This document shows positions 14,063-53,510 of a stretch of 64,000 nucleotides of DNA, piece after piece (positions within the stretch are counted from its first letter, which is position 1; every line of letters starts with the position of its first letter). The notes under the pieces are model-generated. The model was not told the DNA's origin, made no database searches, and saw only the letters and a list, made by a program, of their open reading frames with translations. Made by a program: the position numbers and the translations under genes. Origin of the DNA: Porticoccaceae bacterium (GTDB taxonomy: Bacteria; Pseudomonadota; Gammaproteobacteria; Pseudomonadales; Porticoccaceae); the NCBI GenBank assembly GCA_902562425.1, contig CACETF010000004.1, forward strand, positions 1 to 64,000, given 5' to 3'.

Positions 14063-15691
14063 ATGGAAAATGGACACAATCGCGCGTTGGTCATTGGCGC
14101 CGGGTTTGGCGGCTTATCTCTTGGCATACGTCTTCAAAGTCTCGGATTTGATACGACAATCGTCGAGAAACTTGATGCACCAGGCGGGCGAGCTTATGTT
14201 AAAAAAACAAAAGGATTTGTGTTCGACATGGGACCAACTGTAATTACAGTGCCCCATTTTATCGAGGAGCTATTCGAACTCAAGCGAGGGAAACATAATT
14301 TGAATGACCCCGATTTTCCATCTTGTGAATCTCTCTTAGCCAAAACAACACATCGTAGTGAAACTAGCAACTATGTAACCATTGTTCCCATAGCACCCTT
14401 TTATAGAATCTACTTTGATGATAAAACTTTCTTCGATTATGATGGGAATAGGAATAACACGTTGGCTCAAATTAAAAAGATTGCCCCAGAAGATCTGAAA
14501 GGTTACGAGCGTTTCCATGAGGCTGCAGAAGCGATTTTCAAACGAGGATTTCTGGAGTTGGGCTACACCTTTTTTGAAGACACGAAAACGATGCTGAGTG
14601 TTTTACCAGATCTCCTAAAACTGGATGCAGTACGAAACTTGTTTTCCTTTACAAGCAAATATTTTTCCAACGAAAAACTCCGTCAGGTTTTTAGCTTTGA
14701 GACATTGTTAATCGGAGGGAACCCTTTTTCGGTTCCAGCAATCTATGCAATGATTCATTTTGTAGAAAAAACCTGGGGAGTCCATTATGTAATGGGCGGA
14801 ACAGGAGAATTAGTCAACGGCATGGTCAAAAAATTCGAGGAATTAGGCGGATGTATTCGCTTTGATTCGGAAGTTGCGAGTATTAAGGTCGACAAGAGAG
14901 ACAGTATTTTTTCCAAGCCACGAGTGACTGGCCTAAAGTTAAGGAATGGAGAGGACTTGTTTGCTGAAATTGTTGTAAGTAACGCCGATTACGCAAATAC
15001 TTACATGAGGCTCATCGAGCGCAAGCATAGAAGATGGAATAATAATTGGAAAATTCAGCGAATGAGTTATTCTATGTCACTTGTCGTAATTTACTTCGGT
15101 TTCAAAGCAACACAATCATTGGATCTCAGACACCACAATATTATCTTGGGCCCACGCTACAGGGAACTATTGAGCGATATTTTCAAGAACAAAATTTTAG
15201 CACAAGACTTCAGCCAATACCTGCATATACCCACGATTACAGACCCATCACTTGCCCCTGAAAACCATCATGCCGCATACACACTTATCCCAGTACCAAA
15301 TAATCAAAGCAACATTGACTGGGATAATGAGGGACCAAAGTTAACTGATGCAGTTCTGTTATTCCTAGACGAGGAGGGGTATATACCAGGCTTGATGGCA
15401 AACTTAGTTCACAGCGAATTCATTACCCCAGACTATTTTGAGAACACTCTAAATAGTTATGTCGGCAATAGTTTTGGAGTTGAGCCGAAATTAACACAAT
15501 CTGCATTTTTCCGACCTCACAACAGGTCCGAAGATATTGAAAATCTTTACTTAGCTGGAGCAAACGCTCAGCCGGGTGCGGGCACTCCAAGCGTGATGAT
15601 GTCTGCCAAAATGACAGCACGAGCTATATTGAAAGATTTTGCGGGAGATGTCACCTCTTGGAGACAGGAAAAATCTTTAAATATATATTAA
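14063..15691 (+). CDS. Phytoene desaturase-family FAD oxidoreductase (CrtI-like)
   Basis: A 542-residue flavoprotein of the CrtI/carotenoid desaturase family. The dinucleotide-binding motif is [15 protein letters not shown] (10-24), with the acidic EK in [14 protein letters not shown] after beta-2. The C-terminal FAD segment reads [25 protein letters not shown] (about 499-523), the CrtI signature region. The length (about 500-540) fits. No phytoene synthase (crtB), GGPP synthase (crtE) or cyclase lies near, so the carotenoid role is not confirmed. Related CrtI-fold enzymes also act on other isoprenoids. A weak ribosome site precedes the ATG. Confidence 0.8.
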
Positions 15692-15855
15692 ACATGGTGT
15701 CATTTTTTGTGAATTCTGAATGAGTCTGCCAACCTATAATGAAGTTTATAGCGTATTAAGGGCTTTTATTTCTGGGATTCTTGTTTTGCGTTATCTAAAA
15801 GACAAATTTAAAAGTACGATCTATGACTAGCGAGGTTCAAATATAAAGAGGCGCA

Positions 15856-16320
15856 ATGAAGAAAAATTCTTTTATCAATAGACACAAACAACCAACCTCC
15901 CTCGGTGGCGTTGAGACCGCGGCCAAGATAATGAGCCTGATGAAAATGGATATGGCCAATACAATTATCGGAGATATTGCTGAGAAAGACGAAAAACTTG
16001 CGATTGAAATTCAGGAAAATATGTTCCTATTTGATTCTTTAGCCAACATTAATGATCGGTCGATCCAAAAAATGTTGCAAAAAACGCCCAATGATCAGCT
16101 AGCTATTGCCCTCAAAAACACAAACAAAATTGTTCAGGATAAATTTTACAAGAACATGTCTAAACGAGCAAAGAAAAGACTTATCGATGATATGGAAATG
16201 TTAGGAGATCTGAGGGCCTCAGATATTGAACTAGCTCAGAAAAATATTACACGCACAGCACGTAGAATGGCGGATGCAGGGGAGATAATACTTGAAATAA
16301 ACCGACAGGATTTTTTATGA
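15856..16320 (+). CDS. Free-standing FliG middle/C-terminal domain protein
   Basis: A 154-residue protein that matches flagellar motor switch FliG from about E. coli residue 186 to its end. GGVETAAKIMSLM (17-29) matches the end of the middle domain. MFLFDSLANINDRSIQKML (56-74) and FYKNMSKRAKKRLIDDM (97-113) match the C-terminal torque domain. By position the five charged torque residues (E. coli K264, R281, D288, D289, R297) correspond to K87, R104, D111, D112 and R120, and all are kept. The N-terminal FliF-binding domain and the EHPQ surface are missing. AGAGG precedes the ATG, so this start is real rather than a fragment of a longer frame. No other flagellar gene is in the window. Confidence 0.85.
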   Translation: MKKNSFINRHKQPTSLGGVETAAKIMSLMKMDMANTIIGDIAEKDEKLAIEIQENMFLFDSLANINDRSIQKMLQKTPNDQLAIALKNTNKIVQDKFYKNMSKRAKKRLIDDMEMLGDLRASDIELAQKNITRTARRMADAGEIILEINRQDFL

Positions 16321-16498: not shown

Positions 16499-17434
16499 TT
16501 AGGCATCAACCTGCCTTGTAGCACTTACGTTGAAATCTTCCTCAAGAACTATATTTTTTATTTTAATCATAGCACCTAGCAATCCCGATTTGTTTTCAAG
16601 CTCAGGAGCTTTAATTAGGGCAAGCATCTCATCCAGCGTCAGTAGGTGAGAAATGTAGCCATTCAGTGCCTCAAGCGTTTTAAATCGCACTAAGTCTATT
16701 AACCCAGGAGTCATCATCACCCCACCACCAAGAATTATTTTATCCGGTGAAAAACTTAGTGTTAGCATTTTTACCAACTGTGCCAGATACTTAGCCTCCA
16801 GAATATGTGCTGGATGCTCAACTGGCAGATCAGATAGCGACTCTCCCCATCGAGCCGAAATAGCTGGGCCGCTAGCCAGACCTTCGAGACAATTCCGATG
16901 ATATGGGCATAAGCCTTCAAATGGATCACAATGTGCCTCTTGGTACACAGAAATGTGTCCAATCTCTGGATGAGTTTTCCCGCTGAAGACAACCCCATCA
17001 GCAACAATGCCTACGCCTATGCCAGTCCCAATCGTGGTATAGACGACAGTATTTGAATCTCTACCGGCGCCAATATACGCCTCGGCAAGACAGGCTGCGT
17101 TGACATCCGTATCAATAGCGGTCGGACAGTCTATGACAGAAAAAGCTTGTTGCAGGTTAAATCCCTCCCAATGTTTCTTAGGAGAGTTTTGGATGCAACC
17201 AAAATCTGCTGAATGGAGGTTTAGATCAATAGGACCGAATGATGCTATCCCCAGTCCTTTTATCCCACCAAATGTTCTTCTTGACTGATTGATAAAGTTT
17301 ATGAGCGTTTTTACCGTTTCCCCAGGCAATCTTGTTGGAATAGTGACCTCATCAAATATTGTTGTTCCATCTCCAATGCCCGCTGTACATTTTGTGCCAC
17401 CTAGCTCTACTGCAGCAAAAATATTTTCTACCAT
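16499..17434 (-). CDS. ROK-family sugar kinase (fructokinase-like)
   Basis: A cytoplasmic ATP-dependent hexose kinase of the ROK family, 311 residues. The phosphate loop is VELGGTKC (9-16). The catalytic Asp lies in IDTDVNAACL (about 110). The zinc motif His160 ... CPYHRNCLEG (176-184) is present. The combination with LASGPAISARWG matches the fructokinase/GmuE branch (B. subtilis GmuE/YdhR type). An upstream ATG would add 18 residues. I chose the ATG at 17434 because it has GAGGTG at good spacing and starts right at the fold. It lies downstream of an MFS transporter gene on the same strand (126-base gap), which suggests a sugar uptake and phosphorylation pair. Confidence 0.85.
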   Translation of the reverse strand: MVENIFAAVELGGTKCTAGIGDGTTIFDEVTIPTRLPGETVKTLINFINQSRRTFGGIKGLGIASFGPIDLNLHSADFGCIQNSPKKHWEGFNLQQAFSVIDCPTAIDTDVNAACLAEAYIGAGRDSNTVVYTTIGTGIGVGIVADGVVFSGKTHPEIGHISVYQEAHCDPFEGLCPYHRNCLEGLASGPAISARWGESLSDLPVEHPAHILEAKYLAQLVKMLTLSFSPDKIILGGGVMMTPGLIDLVRFKTLEALNGYISHLLTLDEMLALIKAPELENKSGLLGAMIKIKNIVLEEDFNVSATRQVDA

Positions 17435-17559
17435 GAAATCAGGCACCTCACCTGCCAATTTTAAAAAAACAACAAATTTTAACCTCAACCTTAATGAGCT
17501 AAAAAAGTTATAGACTGGCCAAAAAAACTTAATAACGTAAAGCGTCTCAATAAAATATT

Positions 17560-33575: not shown

Positions 33576-34463
33576 TTGTACTGTAAAATATGGGGTGTAA
33601 GGGGTTCTCTACCGGTGCCAGGAGCCAGTACGCTCAGGTATGGTGGTAATACTACTTGCATAGAAGTTAACGGACACGATGACGAATGCATAATTTTAGA
33701 CGCCGGCACAGGAATATTCCCACTGGGACAACATCTCACACGTACTAAAATAAAAAAGATTCATTTATTCATTACTCACACCCACTGGGACCATATTCAA
33801 GGTTTTACAATGTTTCAACCACTTTTCTCTGACGATGTTGAAATACATATTTATGGGCCAAAAGACCCAACCAGTGGTCTGTCCATAAAAGATCATTTGA
33901 CAAATCAAATGGATCGTCATTTTTTCCCGGTGCAATTACAAAATGTAGCCGCCCGTTTAATTTTCGAAGACGTAACGGGCGGAGACAGAATTCAGATAAA
34001 TTCTTTGATTGTCAAAACCTTTGAATTTAATCATACCGCGATTAATATTGGATACCGAATCGATAGTAAGAATCGTAGTATATGTTTTACCGGAGATCAT
34101 GAATGGAAATTAAATCCTCACCCATATGATGACCCTCGTTTCTCGAATATGGAGCAGAGTATCAAGGCCACTCGACAAGAAACTATCAACTTCATTAAAG
34201 GAGTTGATTTGCTGATCATAGACTCCGCATACACTGAAGAGGAATACCTTACACGACATGGTTGGGGGCATGGAACACTGGATTCGAGTATTACTGCCGC
34301 ACGAGAAGCATGCGCAAAACAAGTTCTTTTTACGCATCACGACCCGAATAGAACAGACGATGAATTAGACAAAGTGTTTATAGAGTCTCTTGAAAGGAAT
34401 GCGATCAACCCGAAGGATCCAGAGTTTGCTCTGGCAAAGGAAGGTATGGAGATAAAACTGTAA
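33576..34463 (+). CDS. MBL-fold metallohydrolase next to a nucleotide cyclase
   Basis: A 295-residue metallo-beta-lactamase-fold hydrolase. The N-terminus YCKIWGVRGSLPVPG (2-16) and the metal motif THTHWDHIQGF (67-77; His68, His70, Asp72, His73) are those of the RNase Z/PhnP-like branch. A further Asp and His are in ICFTGDHEW and LFTHHDPNRTDDEL. Some relatives cleave cyclic or phosphodiester bonds, so cyclic-nucleotide hydrolysis is possible but unproven. The TTG start at 33576 has AGGTGG upstream and places the conserved N-terminus correctly. The stop overlaps the ATG of the cyclase by one base, so the two are translated together. Confidence 0.85.
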   Translation: MYCKIWGVRGSLPVPGASTLRYGGNTTCIEVNGHDDECIILDAGTGIFPLGQHLTRTKIKKIHLFITHTHWDHIQGFTMFQPLFSDDVEIHIYGPKDPTSGLSIKDHLTNQMDRHFFPVQLQNVAARLIFEDVTGGDRIQINSLIVKTFEFNHTAINIGYRIDSKNRSICFTGDHEWKLNPHPYDDPRFSNMEQSIKATRQETINFIKGVDLLIIDSAYTEEEYLTRHGWGHGTLDSSITAAREACAKQVLFTHHDPNRTDDELDKVFIESLERNAINPKDPEFALAKEGMEIKL

Positions 34464-35494
34464 TGGACAGAAATGAGGGAATATTCCAACATGAGTTCAA
34501 AGTTATAGAGAAATCAAAGTTCGCTATCGAGGGAGCGTCTGACGCATCACAAACAGAGCTCAGCGAATTACTGAGAGAATACGAAAAGCTCCTGAAAACA
34601 ACGAGGCGTCTGGTGAAACATAATGATCGAAGTGAGGAGCGCTTAAATGTCCTTGCACAAGAGGCACGAGAAAAAAGTACTCAGCTAGAGCAGCTGTCGG
34701 CTCAACTTGCCAAGTACCTGTCTCCTCAAGTTTATGAGTCAATTTTTAGCGGCAAACAAAAAGTAAGTCTCGCGAGCTCGAGAAAGAAACTAACTATCTT
34801 TTTTTCGGACCTTGTTGGCTTCACACAGATTACGGAGAGCCTCGAATCAGAGGATCTCACGGCGGCGCTTAACTATTACCTTGACGAAATGTCGGCAATT
34901 GCACTCAAATATGGAGCCACGATAGACAAATATATCGGAGACGCAATTATGATCTTTTTTGGCGACCCTGAAAGTCAAGGCATAGCTGAAGATGCATTTC
35001 GATGTGTGTCAATGGCAGTTGAAATGCAAAAAAGGTTAGAGGAATTAACCGACAAATGGGCGCACTTTGGGCTACAAGAACCTTTCAAGATGAGAATAGG
35101 GATCAATACTGGTTTTTGCACTGTGGGTAATTTTGGCTCTGAAAATCGATTGGACTACACCGTTATTGGTGCAGGAGTGAATATGGCCGCGCGACTTGAG
35201 GCCGCTGCATCTTCTGGATCCATACTTCTTTCTTTCGACACCTATAACCTCGTAAAAGATAAAATTTCGTGTAAAGAATCTGAGAGGATCAAGCTAAAAG
35301 GAATTAGCAACCCAGTCCGAACATATGAGGTAATTGAATCGGAAGATACAGAATCGATAATTACAATTAAAACGGAAAACTCCTTTCTTCAGGAGCAGCT
35401 CTCAGGTTTGACTGGGCAACAGCTTGACGAACTAAATTTGTCTCTCACAAATGCACTTGACACCTTGCGTGCCCATGTAGAGAAATCCACTTAA
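34463..35494 (+). CDS. Class III adenylate/guanylate cyclase
   Basis: A soluble 343-residue nucleotidyl cyclase. An N-terminal coiled coil (about 30-85) leads into SAQLAKYLSPQVYESIFSG (79-97), then the catalytic domain (108-300). Metal ligands are Asp116 in FFSDLVGF and Asp160 in YIGDAIMIFFGD. The base-selecting Lys156 (DKYIGD) and RLDYTVIGAGVNMAARLE (229-246) fit adenylate cyclases, with transition-state Asn240 and Arg244. Activity as an adenylate cyclase is therefore likely. It lacks GGDEF features. Its end is five bases from the end of the convergent SiaB-like gene. It has no receiver or membrane domain, so the partners nearby probably regulate it. Confidence 0.9.
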   Translation: MDRNEGIFQHEFKVIEKSKFAIEGASDASQTELSELLREYEKLLKTTRRLVKHNDRSEERLNVLAQEAREKSTQLEQLSAQLAKYLSPQVYESIFSGKQKVSLASSRKKLTIFFSDLVGFTQITESLESEDLTAALNYYLDEMSAIALKYGATIDKYIGDAIMIFFGDPESQGIAEDAFRCVSMAVEMQKRLEELTDKWAHFGLQEPFKMRIGINTGFCTVGNFGSENRLDYTVIGAGVNMAARLEAAASSGSILLSFDTYNLVKDKISCKESERIKLKGISNPVRTYEVIESEDTESIITIKTENSFLQEQLSGLTGQQLDELNLSLTNALDTLRAHVEKST

Positions 35495-35499
35495 TTAAG

Positions 35500-36033
35500 T
35501 TATGCATGCGTATTCACCCACCCGCGATATAAAAATAAGGTCTGGCCATTGTGTTCTTCAAACGCAAAATCAAATCGCGAGCTTCTTCTGGCAACCTCGA
35601 TAAACCCGAGCCCCGCGCCAACGCTTCCCTCTGGAGGCCCTTGCTTCAATCTCTGCTTGTAAGCCGCTTTGAGCTCAGCTGCATCCATACGCTTTAACTG
35701 AGTAAGTATCTCCTCTAAACGCTCTCGACTCTTCCCATCAACTTCATTAACCGCCTCAATAAGGAATCCATCGTTGGTGTGGCTTATTGACACAGATCCA
35801 ACGCCACTTTTATCTAAACGATCTAAAGAGTACCGGATGATATTTTGTGCTTGCTCGACAAAGATGCTGAACACTTTATTTGTAATCGGCGAAGTGCTAT
35901 CTGTCTCTGTTAGCTGATCTTTCACTACAGAGGATAGACTTGTGAGTACCTCCTCAGACAGCGGACCTGCATAGCAAAAGAAGGTGCCTCGATTCAGCAT
36001 AAGCTCATGCAGCTGTATAGTATCATTATTCAT
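35500..36033 (-). CDS. SiaB-like (DUF6272) GHKL-type protein kinase
   Basis: A 177-residue protein. FVEQAQNIIRYSLDRL matches the N-box of SiaB, where Glu/Asn bind Mg-ATP, and GSVGAGLGFIEVARRSS is the glycine-rich ATP lid. In Pseudomonas SiaB phosphorylates SiaC on a Thr and so opposes SiaA. I chose the ATG at 36033 (GGTGGGGA before it) over a TTG at 36048, giving an N-terminus MNNDTIQLHELML. The SiaC-like gene is 34 bases upstream on the same strand, so the two form an operon. Confidence 0.88.
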   Translation of the reverse strand: MNNDTIQLHELMLNRGTFFCYAGPLSEEVLTSLSSVVKDQLTETDSTSPITNKVFSIFVEQAQNIIRYSLDRLDKSGVGSVSISHTNDGFLIEAVNEVDGKSRERLEEILTQLKRMDAAELKAAYKQRLKQGPPEGSVGAGLGFIEVARRSSRFDFAFEEHNGQTLFLYRGWVNTHA

Positions 36034-36067
36034 AAGATTCCCCACCAATAAGACAGAATGACTACTA

Positions 36068-36430
36068 TTAACCTATTGATTCCAGAGTAAATTTTACATG
36101 CTCTAAATCCTCTTCAAACTCTTCTCCAGCTTCTTCCATTGTGTCGTCGTCCTCCCTGTGACGCCACACAACTTCTATCATGGTGCCCTCACTGGCGCTT
36201 TCGTCAAGATATTCAAAAAAATCATAAAAGAATTTTGCGGATGAGCTATTAAAATAGTAGAGTTCTATTTCTACTTTATACTCTTTTGCTTTTGAAATCC
36301 CTTCCCTTAAATGACCAATTACAGGAGCGGAGAACTCAGTGATGTCCTCAGGATAACACTCGCCTTTGATCGTGCACAATCCTGGTAAAAATTCGACTGC
36401 AGGGGTTCTGGATGTAGCTGGAATTTTCAT
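36068..36430 (-). CDS. SiaC-like (DUF1987) partner-switch protein
   Basis: A 120-residue acidic protein of the DUF1987 (SiaC) family. The N-terminal TSRTPAVEFLP (6-16) and GECYPEDITEF (23-33) match the family. The middle IELYYFNSSSAKFFYDFFEYL (55-75) is the switch helix region. From memory of P. aeruginosa SiaC, its phosphorylated Thr lies in LNTSS; the aligned site here is Ser62 in FNSSS, so a Ser may replace Thr. The Glu-rich tail (EEAGEEFEEDLEH) is typical. In Pseudomonas, unphosphorylated SiaC binds and activates the diguanylate cyclase SiaD; no GGDEF gene is in this locus. Confidence 0.9.
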   Translation of the reverse strand: MKIPATSRTPAVEFLPGLCTIKGECYPEDITEFSAPVIGHLREGISKAKEYKVEIELYYFNSSSAKFFYDFFEYLDESASEGTMIEVVWRHREDDDTMEEAGEEFEEDLEHVKFTLESIG

Positions 36431-36518
36431 AACTATACCGCATAAATATTATATAAAGTGGATTTTAATGAAAAGCCTGTCTTAGGACATCAACATAAAT
36501 TTAAAGCGTTGGAACTGG

Positions 36519-37112
36519 TCAATTCGAATCGTAATTCACTCCTTTAAAATCCTCACTGAACAGTTTTTCTGCTAAAGCTGAGCTAGTGCGCGACACCTTG
36601 CCTGTATATCTCGCCAGTTTTGCGATACCACCCTCGCTACTTCGGCTTTCCCGGAGGATATTACCGCGCACTCTATTTTGAAATGAGGTCTGGCGTCCAT
36701 ACATGACTGCGCCGAACGTCTTTAGAAGTTCAATCGCGATTTTGGGTTTGGCGCTAACAAGGGCATCGAATTTCTGCTTGGTCAAACACAAGCAGTCAGC
36801 AGGCTCCATTACAACAACAGTCGCAGTCCGTTCTGCATCGGTCATGATACTTACCTCGCCGAGGATGCCGGGGCCAGGAAAAGTAGCTGTATGTAATACA
36901 ACGTCACTGCGATTGATTTGAATTTTTTCAAACACGGAGAATGTACCATTTAAAAGAAAATACATGTCCTCATCTTGATCACCTTGCTTTACCATTACAT
37001 GGCCCTTCTCAGCCCGCAACTCAGCGAGAAAGGGTAGTAGTGAGTCAACACCGCCCTCTCCTAGCTGAGGTAAAAGAGCAATTAGGGTATCGCGTGACCC
37101 GTCTATGCGCAT
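36519..37112 (-). CDS. Cyclic-nucleotide-binding (CNB) protein without DNA-binding domain
   Basis: A 197-residue protein with a CNB fold from about 5 to 130. GQVMVKQGDQDEDMYFLLNGT-like text (about 38-57), and the phosphate-binding cassette GPGILGEVSIMTDAERTATVVV (80-101; Gly85, Glu86, Arg95, Thr96) are present. The rest is a Lys/Arg/Ser-rich tail with no helix-turn-helix, so it is not a CRP-type transcription factor. It is the first gene of the CNB-siaC-siaB operon (88 bases before siaC), placing a cAMP or cGMP sensor directly with the partner-switch proteins and opposite a cyclase. Confidence 0.88.
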   Translation of the reverse strand: MRIDGSRDTLIALLPQLGEGGVDSLLPFLAELRAEKGHVMVKQGDQDEDMYFLLNGTFSVFEKIQINRSDVVLHTATFPGPGILGEVSIMTDAERTATVVVMEPADCLCLTKQKFDALVSAKPKIAIELLKTFGAVMYGRQTSFQNRVRGNILRESRSSEGGIAKLARYTGKVSRTSSALAEKLFSEDFKGVNYDSN

Positions 37113-37518
37113 ATATGCATCCGTTGAATAAAGCGTCTCATTAAATTTTAAGTATTACAAAGATTAGAGCCCCAATGATAGCTATCGTGGAGGGCTTTCG
37201 CAATGTTCTGTGACGGGCAAATCGAATTAAAATCATTCTTCACAATTAGCATCTTCCATGCTTTATTACCGACAAAATTCGCGTTCTAAGCAGTGTGTGT
37301 GGCACAATGATAACGTAGTGATTGAATAAAAACGTTGGCAACGCATGTGGTGGATGATATAAAAATGTCCTCTTACCTTTACAATCGCGCCAATCTTTTT
37401 TAGAAAAAATGCTAATTTTACTAACTTTCCAAGGTAAGTGTAACGTAACAAAAAAAGAACGAAAGAAGTTCAAGTAAAAAATATCAAATTCAAAAAGTGA
37501 ACAAAAAAGGAGAAAAAA
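37113..37518. other. Divergent spacer, Sia operon / TonB receptor
   Basis: A 406-base spacer. An imperfect inverted repeat (about 37168-37196; arms AGCCC and GGGCT, with a GATAGCTATC core) is present with no T-run. The receptor's AAGGAG ribosome site lies at 37507-37512. Promoters for both sides are expected but not clear. Confidence 0.4.
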
Positions 37519-40500
37519 GTGCCTAATCAGGGAATTGTGTCTTACTCATCGCTAAACCGGGTTATGCGGTCACAGGCCCGAATACTGGCACTTTTAATAT
37601 TGACAGGTTTAGTCGCTAGGCCGCTCGGCGCGCAAGAAAACGTGGATCTTTCTGCTATTCAGTCGAAAGACTCACTTTCTGTAATAGAATCTATTGTGGT
37701 TACCGGCTCTCTTTTACCGAAAGGTGACTTTACCTCCAATGCACCTATTACCACTATTTCTTCGGAAATGTTTGAGATGTCTAATGCTACTAATGTCGAA
37801 ACTTTAATTAACTCAATGCCTCAGGTTGTCGGGGGAACTGATAGAACCTCTAATTTTGGATTCGGCCTCGCATCAGCTGAGTTGAGAGGTCTAGGCTCTC
37901 AGAGAACACTGGTATTACTGAATAGCAGGAGGTTTGTACCAAGCATTGCAGACGGCGGTACAGTCGACCTCAACTTCATCCCCGTAGGTCTGATAGACCG
38001 TGTTGAAGTTCTAACCGGTGGTGCGTCTGCGGCATATGGATCGGATGCTATGGCGGGAGTTATTAACTTTATTCTCAAAGAAAACATTGAAGGCTGGGAG
38101 GTGAATTTCGGGACTGAGGCTTCGTTTGACCAGCTAGATGCGGGAATCACAAATTTCAACATTACTAATGGCGGAAATTTTGCTTCTTACCGCGGGACTT
38201 ACATGGTTCATTTCGATGCAACTAATCGCTCAGTGGTCAAGTACTCAGACAGAGAGCTGACGGAATCACGGCTCCTGGACCGATATGACGAAAATGGTGC
38301 TGCGATTGGTTTCCGGAATCAGGATCTACAGGACGCATTCGGCGGCACACAATTTCCTGGAACGTCAGATACCGGTTTTTTTGATGCCAGGGTCTTTGGA
38401 CTTCTTGGCAGTCCGCTCGGGTCATTCGGTGAGGGGGGTATTATCCAGCCTCTAAATCCTGCTAATCTTCCTAATCTCAATACTGAAAATTCGTTACAAC
38501 AGGCTCAAAAACGTAACGCCCTCCTAGCAAACTTTACCTTCGATATGACCGATCAAATGAGCATTTATGGAGACCTTACTTGGAGCACAAGTGAGGTACC
38601 CGGTACTATGGGACCACCGGCTATAGGATGGCCATCCAGCCAGACCCCATTTTCGATTGACGGAAATCCCTTTATCAATTCCTCATTTCAATCGACGCTC
38701 GGCAGAGTCTTGGGAACTCGGTATGAACCCGTCTCTCAGGACCAACAACAAACTATTACATCATTACTTGCGAGTAACAACTTTTTTGAGCTTGCTGGAG
38801 CAATCAACAGTATTGCGGCCTCCGTTGGTCCATCGGCATTTCAAGAATTAAATCGATGCTTTTTGGGTCGGCCAGGCGACATTTCCTATTATGCAGGAAA
38901 TATAGCGAGCGGAGGTTTTCCAGTTCTGATTCAAGATGATAACCAAAACTGTATCGGTGATATTGGCTCTGCAGGATTCTACGAGTATAACATTCCGGGA
39001 TGGCTTGGTAGATGGATGTCGGAGATGGATAATACTTCTTGGACAAGTGACTATGAGGTCATGCAAATAGAGTTTGGGGTGGAAGGCAGCTTTTCTGATA
39101 GCTGGGGGTACGACTTTTATGTCCAAAGGGGAGAAGTTACCAGTGATGTTATCGTGACTCCGCTTATTAATAACGAAAAGCTTCAGAGAGCACTGATGGT
39201 ACGCGAAAATATGCCCGGGTCTGGTGTTGCTGAATGTATTCCTTCAACTATTGACAATTCACCATGTGTTCCGATGAATATTTTTGGAGCAGGTAACGTA
39301 TCTCCCGAAGCGGTCGCTTATATCTCTGAGGATGGAACTCAAACCAACACCAATACTCAGACCGTAATATTCGGCACAATTTCTGGAAACACAATGGGAT
39401 GGTTTGAGATGCCGTTGGATGCTGGCCCTATTGGGGCAGCAATTGGATTTGAGTACCTGAAAAATAGAACAGAGGGTACCCGAAATTCTATTATGGATCC
39501 CGGTGCTTTTAGCGGATGGCACAACGTCCCCGGTGTTGTTAATGCTCAGATTGATAGCACGTCATTCTTCTCTGAACTACTTGTGCCGCTCGCTAGCGGC
39601 CTGCCTGGGATAGATTTTCTTGAGCTTGAACTCGGATTTCGAGCATCAGACCACTCTCAAACAGGCAATTCTACAAGTTACAAAACAGCGGTCTCGTACT
39701 ACCCCACTGAAGATCTGCAAATAAGGGCATCTTTTAATGAAGCTTTCAGGTCACCGAGCATGGCCGAGCTTTTTGTACCTATTGTATACAGAGACGGAGT
39801 GAATGACCCCTGCGCTCGCTATTTTTGGAGGCCTGCACTGGCTCCTCAGTCCAAGTGTGAGGCAACTGGGGTACCGCCGGAAAATTTTGATACTCCGAGC
39901 ATCGCTGTATTTGATGTAGACAGAAACTTTGGCGGAAATCCCGATTTGGCTGAAGAAACTGCCGGCACTTTTTCTACAGGTTTTGTCTGGACTCCATACG
40001 ATATGGACGGCCTTTCGATCAGCGTCGATTATTTCGACATTGAGATTGAAAATTTTATAGACTTTAATCCATACAGGTACAGGATGCCTGGCACTGTAGG
40101 CTTTGTGGGAGAGTGCTATAACCCGCTTAATGACGTTGGTAGGATAGCTTTCGCCTGTAAAAATCTTACGCGAGACGCCTCTGGGCGACTCATAGAGGTG
40201 TTTACCGGTTATGATAATATCGGTACGCATAAATTATCTGGTTTTGATATCAATCTGAATTACCAATTCGATCTCTTTGACGGAATCGCAAACGTTGTTT
40301 ATGTAGGCACCAAGCTGCGAGAACGCTCGATAGATAGTCGGATTCTTAGCGCGGAAGAATCGAGCTGTCTTGGAACCTTTAATGATGACTGCGGTTTAAC
40401 CACACCTATTCCAGAATTCAAACATAGAATGACGGTAGACTGGTCTTATGATGCATGGACACATCAGATTGTTTGGAAGTACCTCTCTACTATCGAGGAC

Positions 40501-48202: not shown

Positions 48203-48705
48203 TAAATAGCGTCAATGTAATGCGAGAATTAACCCACATAAACAATAAAGGCGAGGCTGAGATGGTTGATGTATCCGACAAACTTCAATCCTCTAGGACT
48301 GCCACAGCAACATCTGTAATAATTCTTACCCCTAATATTATCAGAGCAATAAATGAATCAAATATTAAAAAAGGTGACGTAATCAGCGTCGCGCGAATCG
48401 CTGGAATTCAAGCGGCAAAAAAGTGTAGCGAGCTAATACCGCTCTGCCACCAAATTCCAATTTCTAAAGTTTCGATCACGTTTGATATTCATCGAGACAG
48501 AATACAAATAACGGCACTCTGCAAAACAATCGCTCAAACCGGTGTTGAAATGGAAGCCCTTACAGCTGCATCAATTGCAGCTCTCACTATTTACGATATG
48601 TGTAAATCAATTGATAGGGGAATCGAAGTCTCTTGTACTAAATTGGTGAAGAAAACGGGTGGAACAAAAAAGAACTCTGAGATTGCCGGCGATGTGCGAG
48701 GTTAA
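48199..48705 (+). CDS. moaC: Cyclic pyranopterin monophosphate synthase
   Basis: Forms cyclic pyranopterin monophosphate from the MoaA product in molybdenum-cofactor synthesis; 168 residues. The conserved segment KKCSELIPLCHQIPISKVSI (about 74-93) and TGVEMEALTAASIAALTIYDMCKS (about 114-137) hold the catalytic residues. The ATG overlaps the end of the molybdoenzyme gene (ATGA). MoaA, the partner enzyme, is at the far end of the same operon (52515-53510). Confidence 0.95.
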   Translation: MINSVNVMRELTHINNKGEAEMVDVSDKLQSSRTATATSVIILTPNIIRAINESNIKKGDVISVARIAGIQAAKKCSELIPLCHQIPISKVSITFDIHRDRIQITALCKTIAQTGVEMEALTAASIAALTIYDMCKSIDRGIEVSCTKLVKKTGGTKKNSEIAGDVRG

Positions 48706-48937
48706 ATTAAAATTTTTCGGGTACCTTTCAGATCTTTCAGAAGAGGTTCCGACAGTTTTAAGCGCTACTACTCCAACTCAGATTCGGAGCAAGTTGGCCA
48801 TAAAATTCCCAAAGCTTGCGTCTGAGCTGCACTCTCCATCCTTGCTCCTTGCGGTTAATAAGATAATAGTCAATTGGGATGAGCCTCTTGAAGATGGAGA
48901 CGAGGTTGCTTTTTTACCTCCAGTAACAGGAGGATGA
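48692..48937 (+). CDS. moaD: Molybdopterin synthase sulfur carrier subunit
   Basis: An 81-residue ubiquitin-fold protein that carries the thiocarboxylate sulfur. It ends in the obligatory Gly-Gly (PPVTGG), which MoeB adenylates. FGYLSDLSEEVPT and EDGDEVAFLPPVTGG are conserved. I chose the ATG at 48692; a longer frame from 48659 would add 11 residues that fit no MoaD. It overlaps moaC by 14 bases. Confidence 0.93.
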   Translation: MCEVKLKFFGYLSDLSEEVPTVLSATTPTQIRSKLAIKFPKLASELHSPSLLLAVNKIIVNWDEPLEDGDEVAFLPPVTGG

Positions 48938-48941
48938 TCTT

Positions 48942-49406
48942 ATGAAGAAAATTATCATACAATCTCAAGATTTCAGTTTAAGCGAAGAATATGGATTGCT
49001 GCGACAGAACAGCAAGGGTATAGGCGCCGTGGTCACATTTATTGGGCTAGTGCGAGACTTCGAGGGCGATTCGGAACTAACACACCTGACCATCCAACAC
49101 TACCCAGAAATGACAGAAAGACTTATCAAACAAACCGTTGAAGAGTCCTTTGAACGCTGGACTCTAAACTGTGTGTCTGTAATCCACCGGGTCGGCAAAT
49201 TAACGCCATCCGACCAAATCTTGTTCGTCGGAGTGTCTGGCCGTCACCGAGCAGACGCATTTTGCGCAAATCAATTCATCATGGACTATCTAAAGACAAA
49301 AGCTACTCTCTGGAAGAAAGTCCACTACACACATAGATCAGAATGGGCAAAGGAAAAAATATCCGACACTGTGGCTGCCGAGCGTTGGCGATTTAGTAAT
49401 GAATGA
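48942..49406 (+). CDS. moaE: Molybdopterin synthase catalytic subunit
   Basis: A 154-residue protein that with MoaD converts cyclic pyranopterin to molybdopterin. The active segment FIGLVRDFEGDSELTHL (about 34-50), IHRVGKL (about 81-87) and LKTKATLWKKVHYTHRSEW (about 112-130) with the reactive lysines are conserved. An AGGAGG site from the end of moaD sits eight bases before the ATG, a small translational link. It ends in the next gene (8-base overlap). Confidence 0.94.
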   Translation: MKKIIIQSQDFSLSEEYGLLRQNSKGIGAVVTFIGLVRDFEGDSELTHLTIQHYPEMTERLIKQTVEESFERWTLNCVSVIHRVGKLTPSDQILFVGVSGRHRADAFCANQFIMDYLKTKATLWKKVHYTHRSEWAKEKISDTVAAERWRFSNE

Positions 49407-49998
49407 AATTTGCGGTGTGATATTGGCTGCAGGGAAATCCAGTCGGATGGGAGCTGCAGATAAGGCCGAAAAATTATTAGAAGGCATTGCACTAATTGAC
49501 CATGTAATTCGGAGAATGAAGCCGCAGGTAGATAGACTGGTCATAAACACAATTCCTGACAGACACCAGAAAAGAGGGCTACCCATCATATATGACATGG
49601 GCCAAAGCTACATGGGTCCTCTTCACGGTATTCATAGCGCACTTACTAGCTATCACATGAAAAAACTAAAATTTCTCGCCGTGGCACCATGTGACGCCCC
49701 GCTTTTACCCTCTAACTTATTTGAGAAGTTGTATGTGAAGTTGATTGCGACAGATTCTGATGTCTCTTGTATCAGGTATAATAAGATTACCCAACCAACG
49801 TTTTCGCTCTGGCGTAAAGAGAAGGCAGCACAAACGATCTATCGATCCATCTGTAAGAGTGAACATGCTAGTATTAAAGGCGTATTTAACAATTTGAAGG
49901 TTTCTTACCTTGATTGGCCCAAATGTCTGCAAAATCCTTTCTATAACGTTAATACACCAGCAGATCTTAAAAACTTGCGTATGATTCAATGTCACTAA
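49399..49998 (+). CDS. mobA: Molybdenum cofactor guanylyltransferase
   Basis: A 199-residue nucleotidyltransferase that attaches GMP to Moco to form MGD, the form used by the DMSO-reductase family, to which the FdhF/YdeP-like enzyme belongs. The N-terminal GTP loop reads GVILAAGKSSRMGAADK (6-22), and the GPLHGIHSAL motif and VAPCDAPLLPSNLF (about 95-108) are intact. It overlaps moaE by eight bases and moeB by ten. Confidence 0.9.
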   Translation: MNEICGVILAAGKSSRMGAADKAEKLLEGIALIDHVIRRMKPQVDRLVINTIPDRHQKRGLPIIYDMGQSYMGPLHGIHSALTSYHMKKLKFLAVAPCDAPLLPSNLFEKLYVKLIATDSDVSCIRYNKITQPTFSLWRKEKAAQTIYRSICKSEHASIKGVFNNLKVSYLDWPKCLQNPFYNVNTPADLKNLRMIQCH

Positions 49999-50801
49999 CG
50001 GCAAAACAACTTCAACGCCATAACCGTCACCTGACGATTGACTCCATTGGAAAAGAAGGTCAGAAAATCTTTGGCGATGCAACGATCCTTATTGCCGGAC
50101 TAGGTGGACTTGGCTGCCCGGCAGCTAGTTATCTATGTGGAGCAGGCATTGGATCTATTATTCTCTGTGATTCGGACAGAGTTGAAATATCTAATTTACC
50201 GCGCCAAACACTTTTTACAGAGGAAGACTGTGGTGAGTCTAAGGTAGTAGTTGCCAAACGAGTTCTCAATCTAATGAATACTGACACCAAAATCACAATT
50301 TTTAATAAAGAACTTGATGACAAACTCCTTGATAATTTCTATACAGTAATACTTGACTGTACTGATAACATTCGTGCTCGTCTCAAACTTAACTCTCATT
50401 GTTATGAGAAAAAAATACCGCTCGTTTCGGCCTCTGCAACCGCATGGGAAGGTCAACTCATTGGATTTGACTATAGACACAAACGGAAGCTTTGTATGAG
50501 TTGTTTAACTAATCAGGAGCACTACCACGTCAGTAATTCCTGCACCCAGAAAGGCATCGTAAATTCTGTTGTAGGTACGATGGGAACTCTTCAAGCAACG
50601 ACAGTTTTGCGCCTTTTGCTGGGCCATTTCGACCAGCATGGTGAAATGATTCGGTATGACGGGAAGACTGGTCGCTTTATTACGCTCACCAAAAAGCCAG
50701 ATCCAACTTGCTTTGTCTGCTCTGAGCCAACTAACCAATCGAAAGAAACTTTTATTAATAACAGTAATGTGAGAAATATAGAAAATGACGCCTTCCTCTG
50801 A
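49989..50801 (+). CDS. moeB: Molybdopterin-synthase adenylyltransferase
   Basis: A ThiF-fold E1-like enzyme (270 residues) that adenylates the C-terminal Gly of MoaD. The nucleotide loop is LIAGLGGLGCPAASYL (34-49), the Mg/ATP segment CDSDRVEISNLPRQ (60-73). Zinc Cys are in CMSC (169-172) and CFVC near the end. The conserved region VVGTMGTLQA is present. No C-terminal rhodanese is fused, unlike eukaryotic MOCS3. It overlaps mobA by ten bases and moaB by 17. Confidence 0.93.
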   Translation: MSLTAKQLQRHNRHLTIDSIGKEGQKIFGDATILIAGLGGLGCPAASYLCGAGIGSIILCDSDRVEISNLPRQTLFTEEDCGESKVVVAKRVLNLMNTDTKITIFNKELDDKLLDNFYTVILDCTDNIRARLKLNSHCYEKKIPLVSASATAWEGQLIGFDYRHKRKLCMSCLTNQEHYHVSNSCTQKGIVNSVVGTMGTLQATTVLRLLLGHFDQHGEMIRYDGKTGRFITLTKKPDPTCFVCSEPTNQSKETFINNSNVRNIENDAFL

Positions 50802-51306
50802 TCCAAAAAATTATCCAGTATGTATCGCGGTTCTCACCATATCAGACACTCGAGACCAAGACACAGATAGTAGCGGTGCATTCCTAGCAAACGCCCTTTC
50901 TCACGAGGGTCATCTTTTACATGAGCTACGAATTGTTCGCGATAATATCTATCAAATCAGAGCAGTCTTGTCGGACTGGATTGCCAACCCAAATATTCAA
51001 GCTATTATTACTAACGGCGGAACGGGATTCTCCTCCAGAGACAGCACTCCAGAGGCAGTATCTCCTCTTTTTGACAAAAATATGGAGGGTTTTGGAGAGT
51101 TATTTCGTCAACTTTCGTATAAGGAAATTGGAAGCTCTTCACTTCAGTCTCGGAGCGTCGCGGGTGTGGCGAACAACACGCTTATCTTTTCTTTACCTGG
51201 ATCTACTGCAGCCTGTGCCACCGGATGGAATAAAATCATTTCAGAGCAATTAAATAATACATTTCAACCCTGCAATTTTATAGCTCACCTCCGCGATAGA
51301 GGCTGA
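50785..51306 (+). CDS. moaB: Molybdopterin adenylyltransferase-like protein MoaB
   Basis: A MogA/MoaB-fold protein of 173 residues; MoaB/MogA adenylate molybdopterin before molybdenum insertion. Conserved segments are VLTISDTRDQDTDSSG (16-31), ITNGGTGFSSRDSTPEAV (about 75-92), and FSLPGSTAACATGW. Its length and N-terminus suit MoaB rather than MogA; no separate mogA is in the operon, so it probably does that job. It sits two bases before moeA. Confidence 0.93.
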   Translation: MTPSSDPKNYPVCIAVLTISDTRDQDTDSSGAFLANALSHEGHLLHELRIVRDNIYQIRAVLSDWIANPNIQAIITNGGTGFSSRDSTPEAVSPLFDKNMEGFGELFRQLSYKEIGSSSLQSRSVAGVANNTLIFSLPGSTAACATGWNKIISEQLNNTFQPCNFIAHLRDRG

Positions 51307-51308
51307 TT

Positions 51309-52505
51309 ATGCTTACCGTAACGGAAGCTATGAATGAGATCAGGAAACTTGCTACGGTAGTAGCGGAGACAGAGGATATTACTGCATCAGAAAGTTTGGA
51401 TCGCATCTTATCCTGCGACATAATCTCTCCTGTAAATGTGCCACCAAACAGTAATAGCGCTATGGATGGCTATGCTTTTTGTCACGAAGAAGCAGTTAAT
51501 AAGCAATTTTGCCTCCCGATTTCTCAACGTATTACTCCGGGAATGTGCCCAAAGCCACTCCTAAAAAACAGTGTCGCTAGGATATTCACGGGAGGTGAAA
51601 TACCCCCGAATGCCGACACTGTGGTGGCGCAAGAACATTGTGTGAGGACGAACAATGAAGTCGCCATCTGTGAGAATACCTTAAAAGGTTCTAATATCCG
51701 CCCCCTGGGACAGGATGTTAAACTCGGATGTCGGGTTTTAGTCAAAGGTAAATTAGTGCGCCCTCAAGAGATAGGCTTGCTTGCATCCATGGGAATCACC
51801 AAGGTACGCGTATTCAGGCCTCTAAAAGTCGCAATAATCTCCACCGGAGACGAATTAGCAGAGACTAACGCTGTTCTGAAAAAAGGTTCGCTTTATGATT
51901 CTAATCTTCCGATGCTAAAGGCCTTATTGAAAGATATAAATGCTGTTCCTTACGATCTTGGTAACATCAAGGATAAAAAAGGATTAATTAAAAATGCTCT
52001 ACTACAAGGAGTGAGGGAATGTGACGTAATTATTACCACCGGTGGTATGTCGGTCGGAGAAGAGGATCACCTCAAGGAGGTGATCCGTAGTCTTGGCACA
52101 ATCAACTTTTGGAAAGTCCTAATTAAACCGGGAAAACCGATAGCTTTCGGAAACATACAGGGGACTCCTGTAGTTGGCCTCCCTGGAAATCCGGGGTCAG
52201 TTTTTGTTACTTTTCACGTATTAGTCAAGCCATTCTTGTTGAAAAGTCAGGGACGAAACGCTACACAACCTTTAGTGCTGAGGGCTCGTGCAAACTTTTC
52301 AAGGGCAGGTGAAAAACGCGAGGTGTACCATCGTGCTTCGACTGATATAAGTAATAATACTGTCTCCTTACTAACTAATCAGAGTAGCGGTGTATTATCA
52401 ACTGCTTGCCGTGGTAATGTATTTGTCCGACAGCGAATCGGAGAAACTATAAATAATGAGGATCTGGTAGATGTGCTACCCTATCAATGGGAAACATCCG
52501 ATTAG
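51309..52505 (+). CDS. moeA: Molybdopterin molybdenumtransferase
   Basis: Inserts molybdate into adenylated molybdopterin; 398 residues, normal length. N-terminal conserved segment VPPNSNSAMDGYAFCHEE (39-56), RIFTGGEIPPNADTVVAQE (92-110), the nucleotide fold IISTGDEL (175-182) and TTGGMSVGEEDHLKEVI (from about 241), then VVGLPGNPGSVFVTFHVLVKP. All are MoeA hallmarks. It lies between moaB and moaA in the same run. Confidence 0.96.
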   Translation: MLTVTEAMNEIRKLATVVAETEDITASESLDRILSCDIISPVNVPPNSNSAMDGYAFCHEEAVNKQFCLPISQRITPGMCPKPLLKNSVARIFTGGEIPPNADTVVAQEHCVRTNNEVAICENTLKGSNIRPLGQDVKLGCRVLVKGKLVRPQEIGLLASMGITKVRVFRPLKVAIISTGDELAETNAVLKKGSLYDSNLPMLKALLKDINAVPYDLGNIKDKKGLIKNALLQGVRECDVIITTGGMSVGEEDHLKEVIRSLGTINFWKVLIKPGKPIAFGNIQGTPVVGLPGNPGSVFVTFHVLVKPFLLKSQGRNATQPLVLRARANFSRAGEKREVYHRASTDISNNTVSLLTNQSSGVLSTACRGNVFVRQRIGETINNEDLVDVLPYQWETSD

Positions 52506-52514
52506 GAGAATTAA

Positions 52515-53510
52515 ATGTCCTCAACGGCAAATCTCATCGATGATTATGGGCGAAAAGTAGAGTACTTAAGGCTCTCGGTAACTGATCGGTGCAACTTTCG
52601 TTGCATTTATTGCATGTCCGAAAATATGACTTTTTTAAGCCGCAAAGAAAACTTGTCGGCAGAAGAGCTTTATGACATTTCGAAAGTATTCGTTGGCCTT
52701 GGTATAACGAAAATACGCTTGACGGGTGGGGAGCCATTGGTCCGACCAGGGATCCTAGACTTAATCAGCTCCCTATCCAAGCTACAGGGACTTAAGGAAT
52801 TAACTCTCACAACAAACGGTGCCCTTCTAAAGAAATTTGCGAAACCTCTCAAGGATGCGGGAATTTCCCGAATAAATATTAGCCTAGACACATTACAAAG
52901 GCCTAGATTCCGAGAACTCTCAAGAACAGGTGAGCTTGATCAAGTACTTGATGGCATTGAGGCTGTACAGCGGGCAAATTTCAAAAATACGAAAATAAAC
53001 GCAGTAATTCTTGCTGGCTATAATGATGATGAAATATGCGATCTAGCAGACTTTGCTATCCGAAGGGACCTCAATATCTCGTATATCGAAGAGATGCCGC
53101 TCGGATCAATCACATCGCATAAGAGAAATCACACAGAATTATCGAGTAAAGTGATCCGCAAAAAATTAGAGACAAGATACAAACTTAGTGATACCAATTA
53201 TCAGACAGGTGGACCTTCTCGGTACGTATCGCTGAAAAATAGTAAGACAAAAATTGGTTTTATCTCTCCGATATCTGAAAATTTCTGTAGTGGTTGTAAT
53301 CGGGTAAGACTCACCTCAGATGGACAATTACTCTCCTGCTTAGGAAATACCGCTAGCACCGATCTTAAAACTATTATCCGTCAATACCCCAGAGACCCAG
53401 ATGTATTGACCCGAGTATTGAGGATGGCAGTCAAAAATAAACCGGAAAAGCACCACTTTAATCTAAACCGGACAGATATTTTACGGTTCATGAATGCCAC
53501 TGGCGGATGA
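52515..53510 (+). CDS. moaA: GTP 3',8-cyclase MoaA
   Basis: A radical-SAM enzyme that starts Moco synthesis from GTP; 331 residues. The radical-SAM cluster is DRCNFRCIYCM (Cys26, Cys30, Cys33), followed by TKIRLTGGEPLVRPG. The second cluster lies in ENFCSGCNRVRLTSDGQLLSCL. The C-terminus ends in Gly-Gly (NATGG), needed for activity in known MoaA. Its TGA overlaps the ATG of the permease gene (ATGA). Confidence 0.96.
   Translation: MSSTANLIDDYGRKVEYLRLSVTDRCNFRCIYCMSENMTFLSRKENLSAEELYDISKVFVGLGITKIRLTGGEPLVRPGILDLISSLSKLQGLKELTLTTNGALLKKFAKPLKDAGISRINISLDTLQRPRFRELSRTGELDQVLDGIEAVQRANFKNTKINAVILAGYNDDEICDLADFAIRRDLNISYIEEMPLGSITSHKRNHTELSSKVIRKKLETRYKLSDTNYQTGGPSRYVSLKNSKTKIGFISPISENFCSGCNRVRLTSDGQLLSCLGNTASTDLKTIIRQYPRDPDVLTRVLRMAVKNKPEKHHFNLNRTDILRFMNATGG

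Follow-up and report, generated by a model that had tools for sequence, protein, structure and literature searches.

Why should a gene encode the C-terminal domain of the flagellar rotor protein FliG and nothing else, and is such a gene functional? The question is raised by a 64,000-nucleotide stretch of DNA from a Porticoccaceae bacterium (the window), in which positions 15856-16320 of the plus strand hold an intact open reading frame with an ATG start, 154 codons and then TGA. The gene and the parts of its 154-aa product are as follows.

15856-16320, plus strand: stand-alone FliG_C gene, with leader, GG hinge, ARM_C, MFXF motif and C1-6 torque domain
Residues 1-16: basic N-terminal leader
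Residues 17-18: GG hinge
Residues 56-59: MFXF motif

The protein matched the Pfam family FliG_C (PF01706) at E=2e-33 and covered the C-terminal 136 positions (194-329) of the TIGR00207 fliG profile at E=5e-37; lacking the N and M domains, it scored 128 bits with TIGR00207 and so stayed under the NCBIfam equivalog cut-off for FliG, 226.7. A phmmer search aligned residues 12-147 without gaps to residues 189-324 of Salmonella FliG (E=1e-26), and this alignment sets the numbering used here, window residue p being FliG residue p+177. In this numbering the start of the protein lies a little ahead of the G194-G195 hinge, and its last residue falls close to position 331 of the E. coli/Salmonella protein. 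By membership tests it lacks both the FliF-binding N-terminal domain and the middle domain with the EHPQ FliM-binding motif, as the original prediction had stated, and tblastn with FliG residues 1-205 found no homology across the window or at seven ortholog loci. An adjoining, frameshifted N-terminal part of FliG, which the same prediction had named as one finding that would speak against it, was likewise not found, and the architecture is the same in independent assemblies. The E-values and seven intact orthologs exclude a chance match. The interval 15856-16320 is thus confirmed as a real gene that encodes the FliG C-terminal module alone.

Of 14 genomes from one uncultured Porticoccaceae genus, eight carry an intact stand-alone FliG_C gene of 150-154 aa, so that the expected presence in close relatives held for seven besides the source genome; the other six members lack the gene, though flagellin genes are present in all 14. 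The carriers include the Porticoccaceae MAGs MED584, NP1052, SP293, NAT43, UBA1854 and UBA2618 as well as the single-cell genome AG-905-B21 (Cellvibrionales, Gammaproteobacteria). No complete stand-alone FliG_C was found outside the genus among the 112 family genomes searched. When 369 genomes of the class were scanned, all matches listed sat in frames of at least 283 aa. In the contig scan that gave the names of the carriers, the other matches all carried EHPQ except one fragment cut by a contig end, and all were full length apart from one more cut contig. A mobile or phage origin was rejected, with no relative in IMG/VR; matches in phage collections were 27-29% identical and lay in unannotated records, and the plasmid matches that carried annotation were ordinary fliG. 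A fragmentary FliG_C match that contains a stop, from a different Porticoccaceae genus (L053, G014:C21:4610-4759), is probably a fliG pseudogene. Our search, which covered part of the literature, found no earlier report of a stand-alone FliG_C paralog.

In a tree of the C-terminal region, all short proteins formed one clade (100/100), and this clade grouped with the genus's own FliG (SH-aLRT 99.5 / UFBoot 86); the AU test did not strongly exclude alternative placements of the paralog (p=0.058-0.078). A full-length FliG of about 353 aa coexists with the short gene in six genomes, which makes the latter a paralog, and within one genome the two are 44-59% identical. Homology, coexistence, the tree and purifying selection together identify the gene as a partial fliG paralog, which arose when the 3' portion of fliG was duplicated within the genus and which is now kept as an independent gene. 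We propose these proteins as a family, the stand-alone FliG_C of one Porticoccaceae genus, which is monophyletic, 150-154 aa long, intact and separate from full-length FliG.

Selection on the gene, which the original prediction had suspected, was evident from substitution patterns. Nei-Gojobori dN/dS was about 0.14-0.31 for pairs of short genes with measurable dS and similar in both halves, and in close pairs nonsynonymous changes fell short of the neutral expectation (binomial p 1.4e-3 to 1e-6). Between the same genomes, the corresponding part of full-length FliG gave a dN/dS of 0-0.008; the ratio of the stand-alone gene is 20-50 times that of FliG's own C-terminus. The gene is therefore selected, yet much less constrained than in FliG. 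It is under purifying selection, genus-restricted and not an artefact.

We took 104 full-length FliGs as the reference; of the 32 positions with a conservation of at least 90% in this set, 26 were identical in all eight short proteins, including G194, G195, A200, I202, M233, F234, F236, N277, M278, S279, R281, A282 and D289. The NMSxRA and MFxF motifs were kept in all eight, as were K264, R281 and D289. The positions altered in some short proteins were N204, R252, G265, E291, P295 and V301, most of them in C1-6; P295, E291 and G265, which adjoin the torque helix, were changed in several orthologs. All five torque residues are indeed present in the window copy (K87, R104, D111, D112 and R120 for K264, R281, D288, D289 and R297), but the conclusion once drawn from them does not carry over to the family, where G009 and G012 have Gly in place of R297 and G009 also has Tyr in place of D288. 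Other residues are specific to the short proteins and fixed in all eight, among them A211, R285, T309, A316, I325 and R327. The pattern fits a protein that would retain its fold, its hinge and a large share of the charge facing the stator, though not the complete torque surface.

We built an AlphaFold2 model with the eight orthologs, in which C1-6 was confident (pLDDT about 90) and ARM_C was of low confidence. The best 16 matches of this model in a fold search against the PDB (E <= 0.001) were all FliG. The model superposed on FliG bound to MotAB (8ucs) with a TM of 0.93 over 89 columns and also matched the FliG_C structure 1qc7.

The following features lie next to the gene in the window.

14063-15691, plus strand: upstream, non-flagellar CrtI-like FAD amine oxidoreductase, which adjoins the gene in four of the five genomes of this context (the contig ends first in the fifth)
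15801-15827, plus strand: conserved intergenic CGATC block, which resembled a sigma-28 -10 element; the window copy scores no better than random
15844-15855, plus strand: ribosome-binding region AGAGGC, 4-9 bases 5' of the ATG, identical by alignment in all five orthologs that share the context
16499-17488, minus strand: downstream, convergent, non-flagellar ROK-family sugar kinase/repressor, which adjoins the gene in five genomes

Three contexts were found. The CrtI-like oxidoreductase and the ROK protein flank the gene in the window, G005, G009, G010 and G012 (the G005 contig ends just upstream), a GST and an MFS gene lie beside it in G008 and G011, and a GH16 gene adjoins it in G001. None of the three contains a flagellar neighbour, and no other window ORF resembles proteins of a close relative's flagellar cluster, which bears out the earlier statement that no flagellar gene is nearby. 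A link to the CrtI-like or ROK neighbour was rejected, as true orthologs of both are restricted to one subgroup. A TAAA-N17-CGAT motif ahead of the window gene had at first suggested a sigma-28 promoter, a candidate that was rejected on its matrix score. The matrix was made from 19 sites of the genus, selected by pattern and mostly adjoining flagellar genes; the training sites scored at least 19.5, while the best score upstream of the window gene was 2.7, which 27% of random 164-mers equal. The close orthologs L035 and L038 scored 7.9 and 10.9, so that the window gene and its close orthologs are at or near background. The test for flagellar co-regulation was therefore negative, with no good sigma-28 site predicted upstream of the gene. 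Elsewhere in the window, positions 48659-53510 read like a run of molybdenum-cofactor genes, as judged by eye from protein starts only.

What might such a protein do? Within the C-ring, the ARM_C of one FliG subunit stacks on the ARM_M of its neighbour, and the charges of FliG_C meet the stator loop (PMC7355467, PMC7505661). We suggest, as a reading that falls somewhat short of even odds, that the stand-alone protein works as a soluble accessory to the ordinary motor, a FliG_C that would tune it by docking on FliG ARM_M, on the stator loop or on both. The preserved ARM_C face would dock on ARM_M of ordinary FliG and replace the neighbouring subunit's own ARM_C, and/or K264, R281 and D289 of the free domain would meet the cytoplasmic loop of MotA. 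A fraction of rotor positions would then carry a non-productive or altered torque head, by which torque, switching bias or ring assembly could be tuned, with no second motor being built. The coexistence with FliG in six genomes, the grouping with the genus's FliG in the tree, the low dN/dS, the retained hinge, MFxF and D289, the matched FliG_C fold and the genus-wide flagellins argue for this modulator; the non-flagellar contexts, the lack of a convincing sigma-28 site, the losses at R297 and D288, the absence from six of 14 genomes and the AU test result argue against it. The original prediction had offered competition with full-length FliG, which is possible and close to our leading model, or another motor as the partner, which we found unsupported. 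In its more specific form the proposal is distinctly more tentative: a genus-specific soluble FliG_C may plug into ARM_M sites of the C-ring or occupy stators, and the ratio of mixed subunits may set torque or switching.

Comparison with known systems places the protein closest to the FliG C-terminal domain (PF01706; about 189-331 in Salmonella/E. coli), with which it shares gapless ARM_C plus C1-6, the GG hinge, MFxF and K264/R281/D289. It differs in being a stand-alone protein without the N domain (FliF binding) and the M domain (EHPQ, FliM binding), in the location of its gene outside a flagellar cluster, and in its basic leader, faster evolution and unfixed R297 and D288. Borrelia burgdorferi has a second fliG homolog (FliG1/FliG2), and PMC7225975, citing PMID 20180908, reports a motor-output role for FliG1. 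The likeness is that a main FliG is accompanied by another gene of FliG type; the spirochete lineage is distant and the origin independent. Both spirochete copies are, so far as is known, of roughly full length and not a lone C-terminal domain. YcgR and EpsE modulate the motor from the cytoplasm, with FliG or the stator as their target. Here the resemblance would be in the manner of working only, that of a soluble protein acting at the FliG_C/MotA interface; the folds are unrelated, and in our case a duplicate of the rotor domain would itself be the modulator. Should the protein bind the motor, nature would provide an example of a motor controlled by a detached domain of its rotor, and the domain-swap model (ARM_M-ARM_C) of C-ring assembly and switching could be probed with it directly. 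Should it not bind, its conserved residues would be those that FliG_C needs just to fold, as distinct from those needed for torque, once released from the motor.

Since no flagellar-type promoter was found, there is room for slow decay or for another role. A duplicated fragment in slow decay, a leftover of little function that survives by chance and weak selection, is an unlikely alternative. It would explain the elevated dN/dS, the piecemeal loss of torque residues in two orthologs and the gene's absence from six genus members, where no relics were seen beside the GST orthologs examined. However, the eight reading frames are intact and nearly constant in length at a synonymous divergence beyond saturation (pairs of 50% identity), dN/dS is well below 1 in both halves, the ribosome-binding site is conserved, and residues specific to the short proteins are fixed in all eight.

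Recruitment of the FliG_C fold to a non-flagellar task, for example as a docking adaptor for another protein, we consider rather improbable. The non-flagellar neighbours in all three contexts, the missing promoter and a torque surface that is partly changed around a kept hydrophobic core agree with it, but the positions kept in all eight proteins are the motor-relevant ones (hinge, MFxF, K264/R281/D289), and every known copy of the gene comes from one genus, with flagellins in all 14 sampled genomes.

It is very improbable that the protein is the working torque module of the organism, with FliG split into two genes or full-length FliG truly lost. This reading is prompted by the source assembly (G000; 2.24 Mb, 38 contigs, 89.6% complete), in which the 15856-16320 gene is the one FliG_C match and neither full-length FliG nor FliM, FlhA or MotB was found. 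The genome search proposed at the outset did recover many flagellin matches, one FlgL-like match and the start of motA. Contig C21 aligns with 72637-99679 of the G005 flagellar contig until its own sequence runs out, and contig C32 aligns with 34308-38206 and breaks off inside motA, both at 93-95% identity. The G005 interval of 38.2-72.6 kb between them, which holds motB, fliF, fliG, fliM and flhA, is unassembled in the source. Contig ends bracket these roughly 34 kb, so that full-length FliG is very probably missing through a gap in the assembly and the organism very probably has an ordinary FliG, as the six relatives with an intact full-length copy do. An assembly or frameshift artefact of ordinary fliG can be dismissed, for although three of the eight loci are close to the end of a contig, the upstream DNA lacks N-terminal FliG homology, the 154-aa architecture recurs in a single-cell genome and in MAGs from several projects, and full-length fliG lies elsewhere in the same genomes at the divergence given above.

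The flagellar genes of the genus have some peculiarities of their own. On G005 contig C31 (37933-41198, L147), two MotB_plug genes in tandem (404 and 415 aa) come after motA, and most of the better-assembled genus members have a closely spaced pair of MotB matches. A second stator set as the partner of the short protein was rejected, as motA-motB-motB also occurs in genomes without the short gene. The source genome has many flagellin paralogs for a small marine genome; on its contig C6 (103662-117173, L144), about eight flagellin genes and at least one broken copy run on one strand to the contig end. Four genus members encode giant flagellins, in which Flagellin_N lies in frames of about 1600 codons (L129, L133, G004:C4:30256 and G006:C82:10887).
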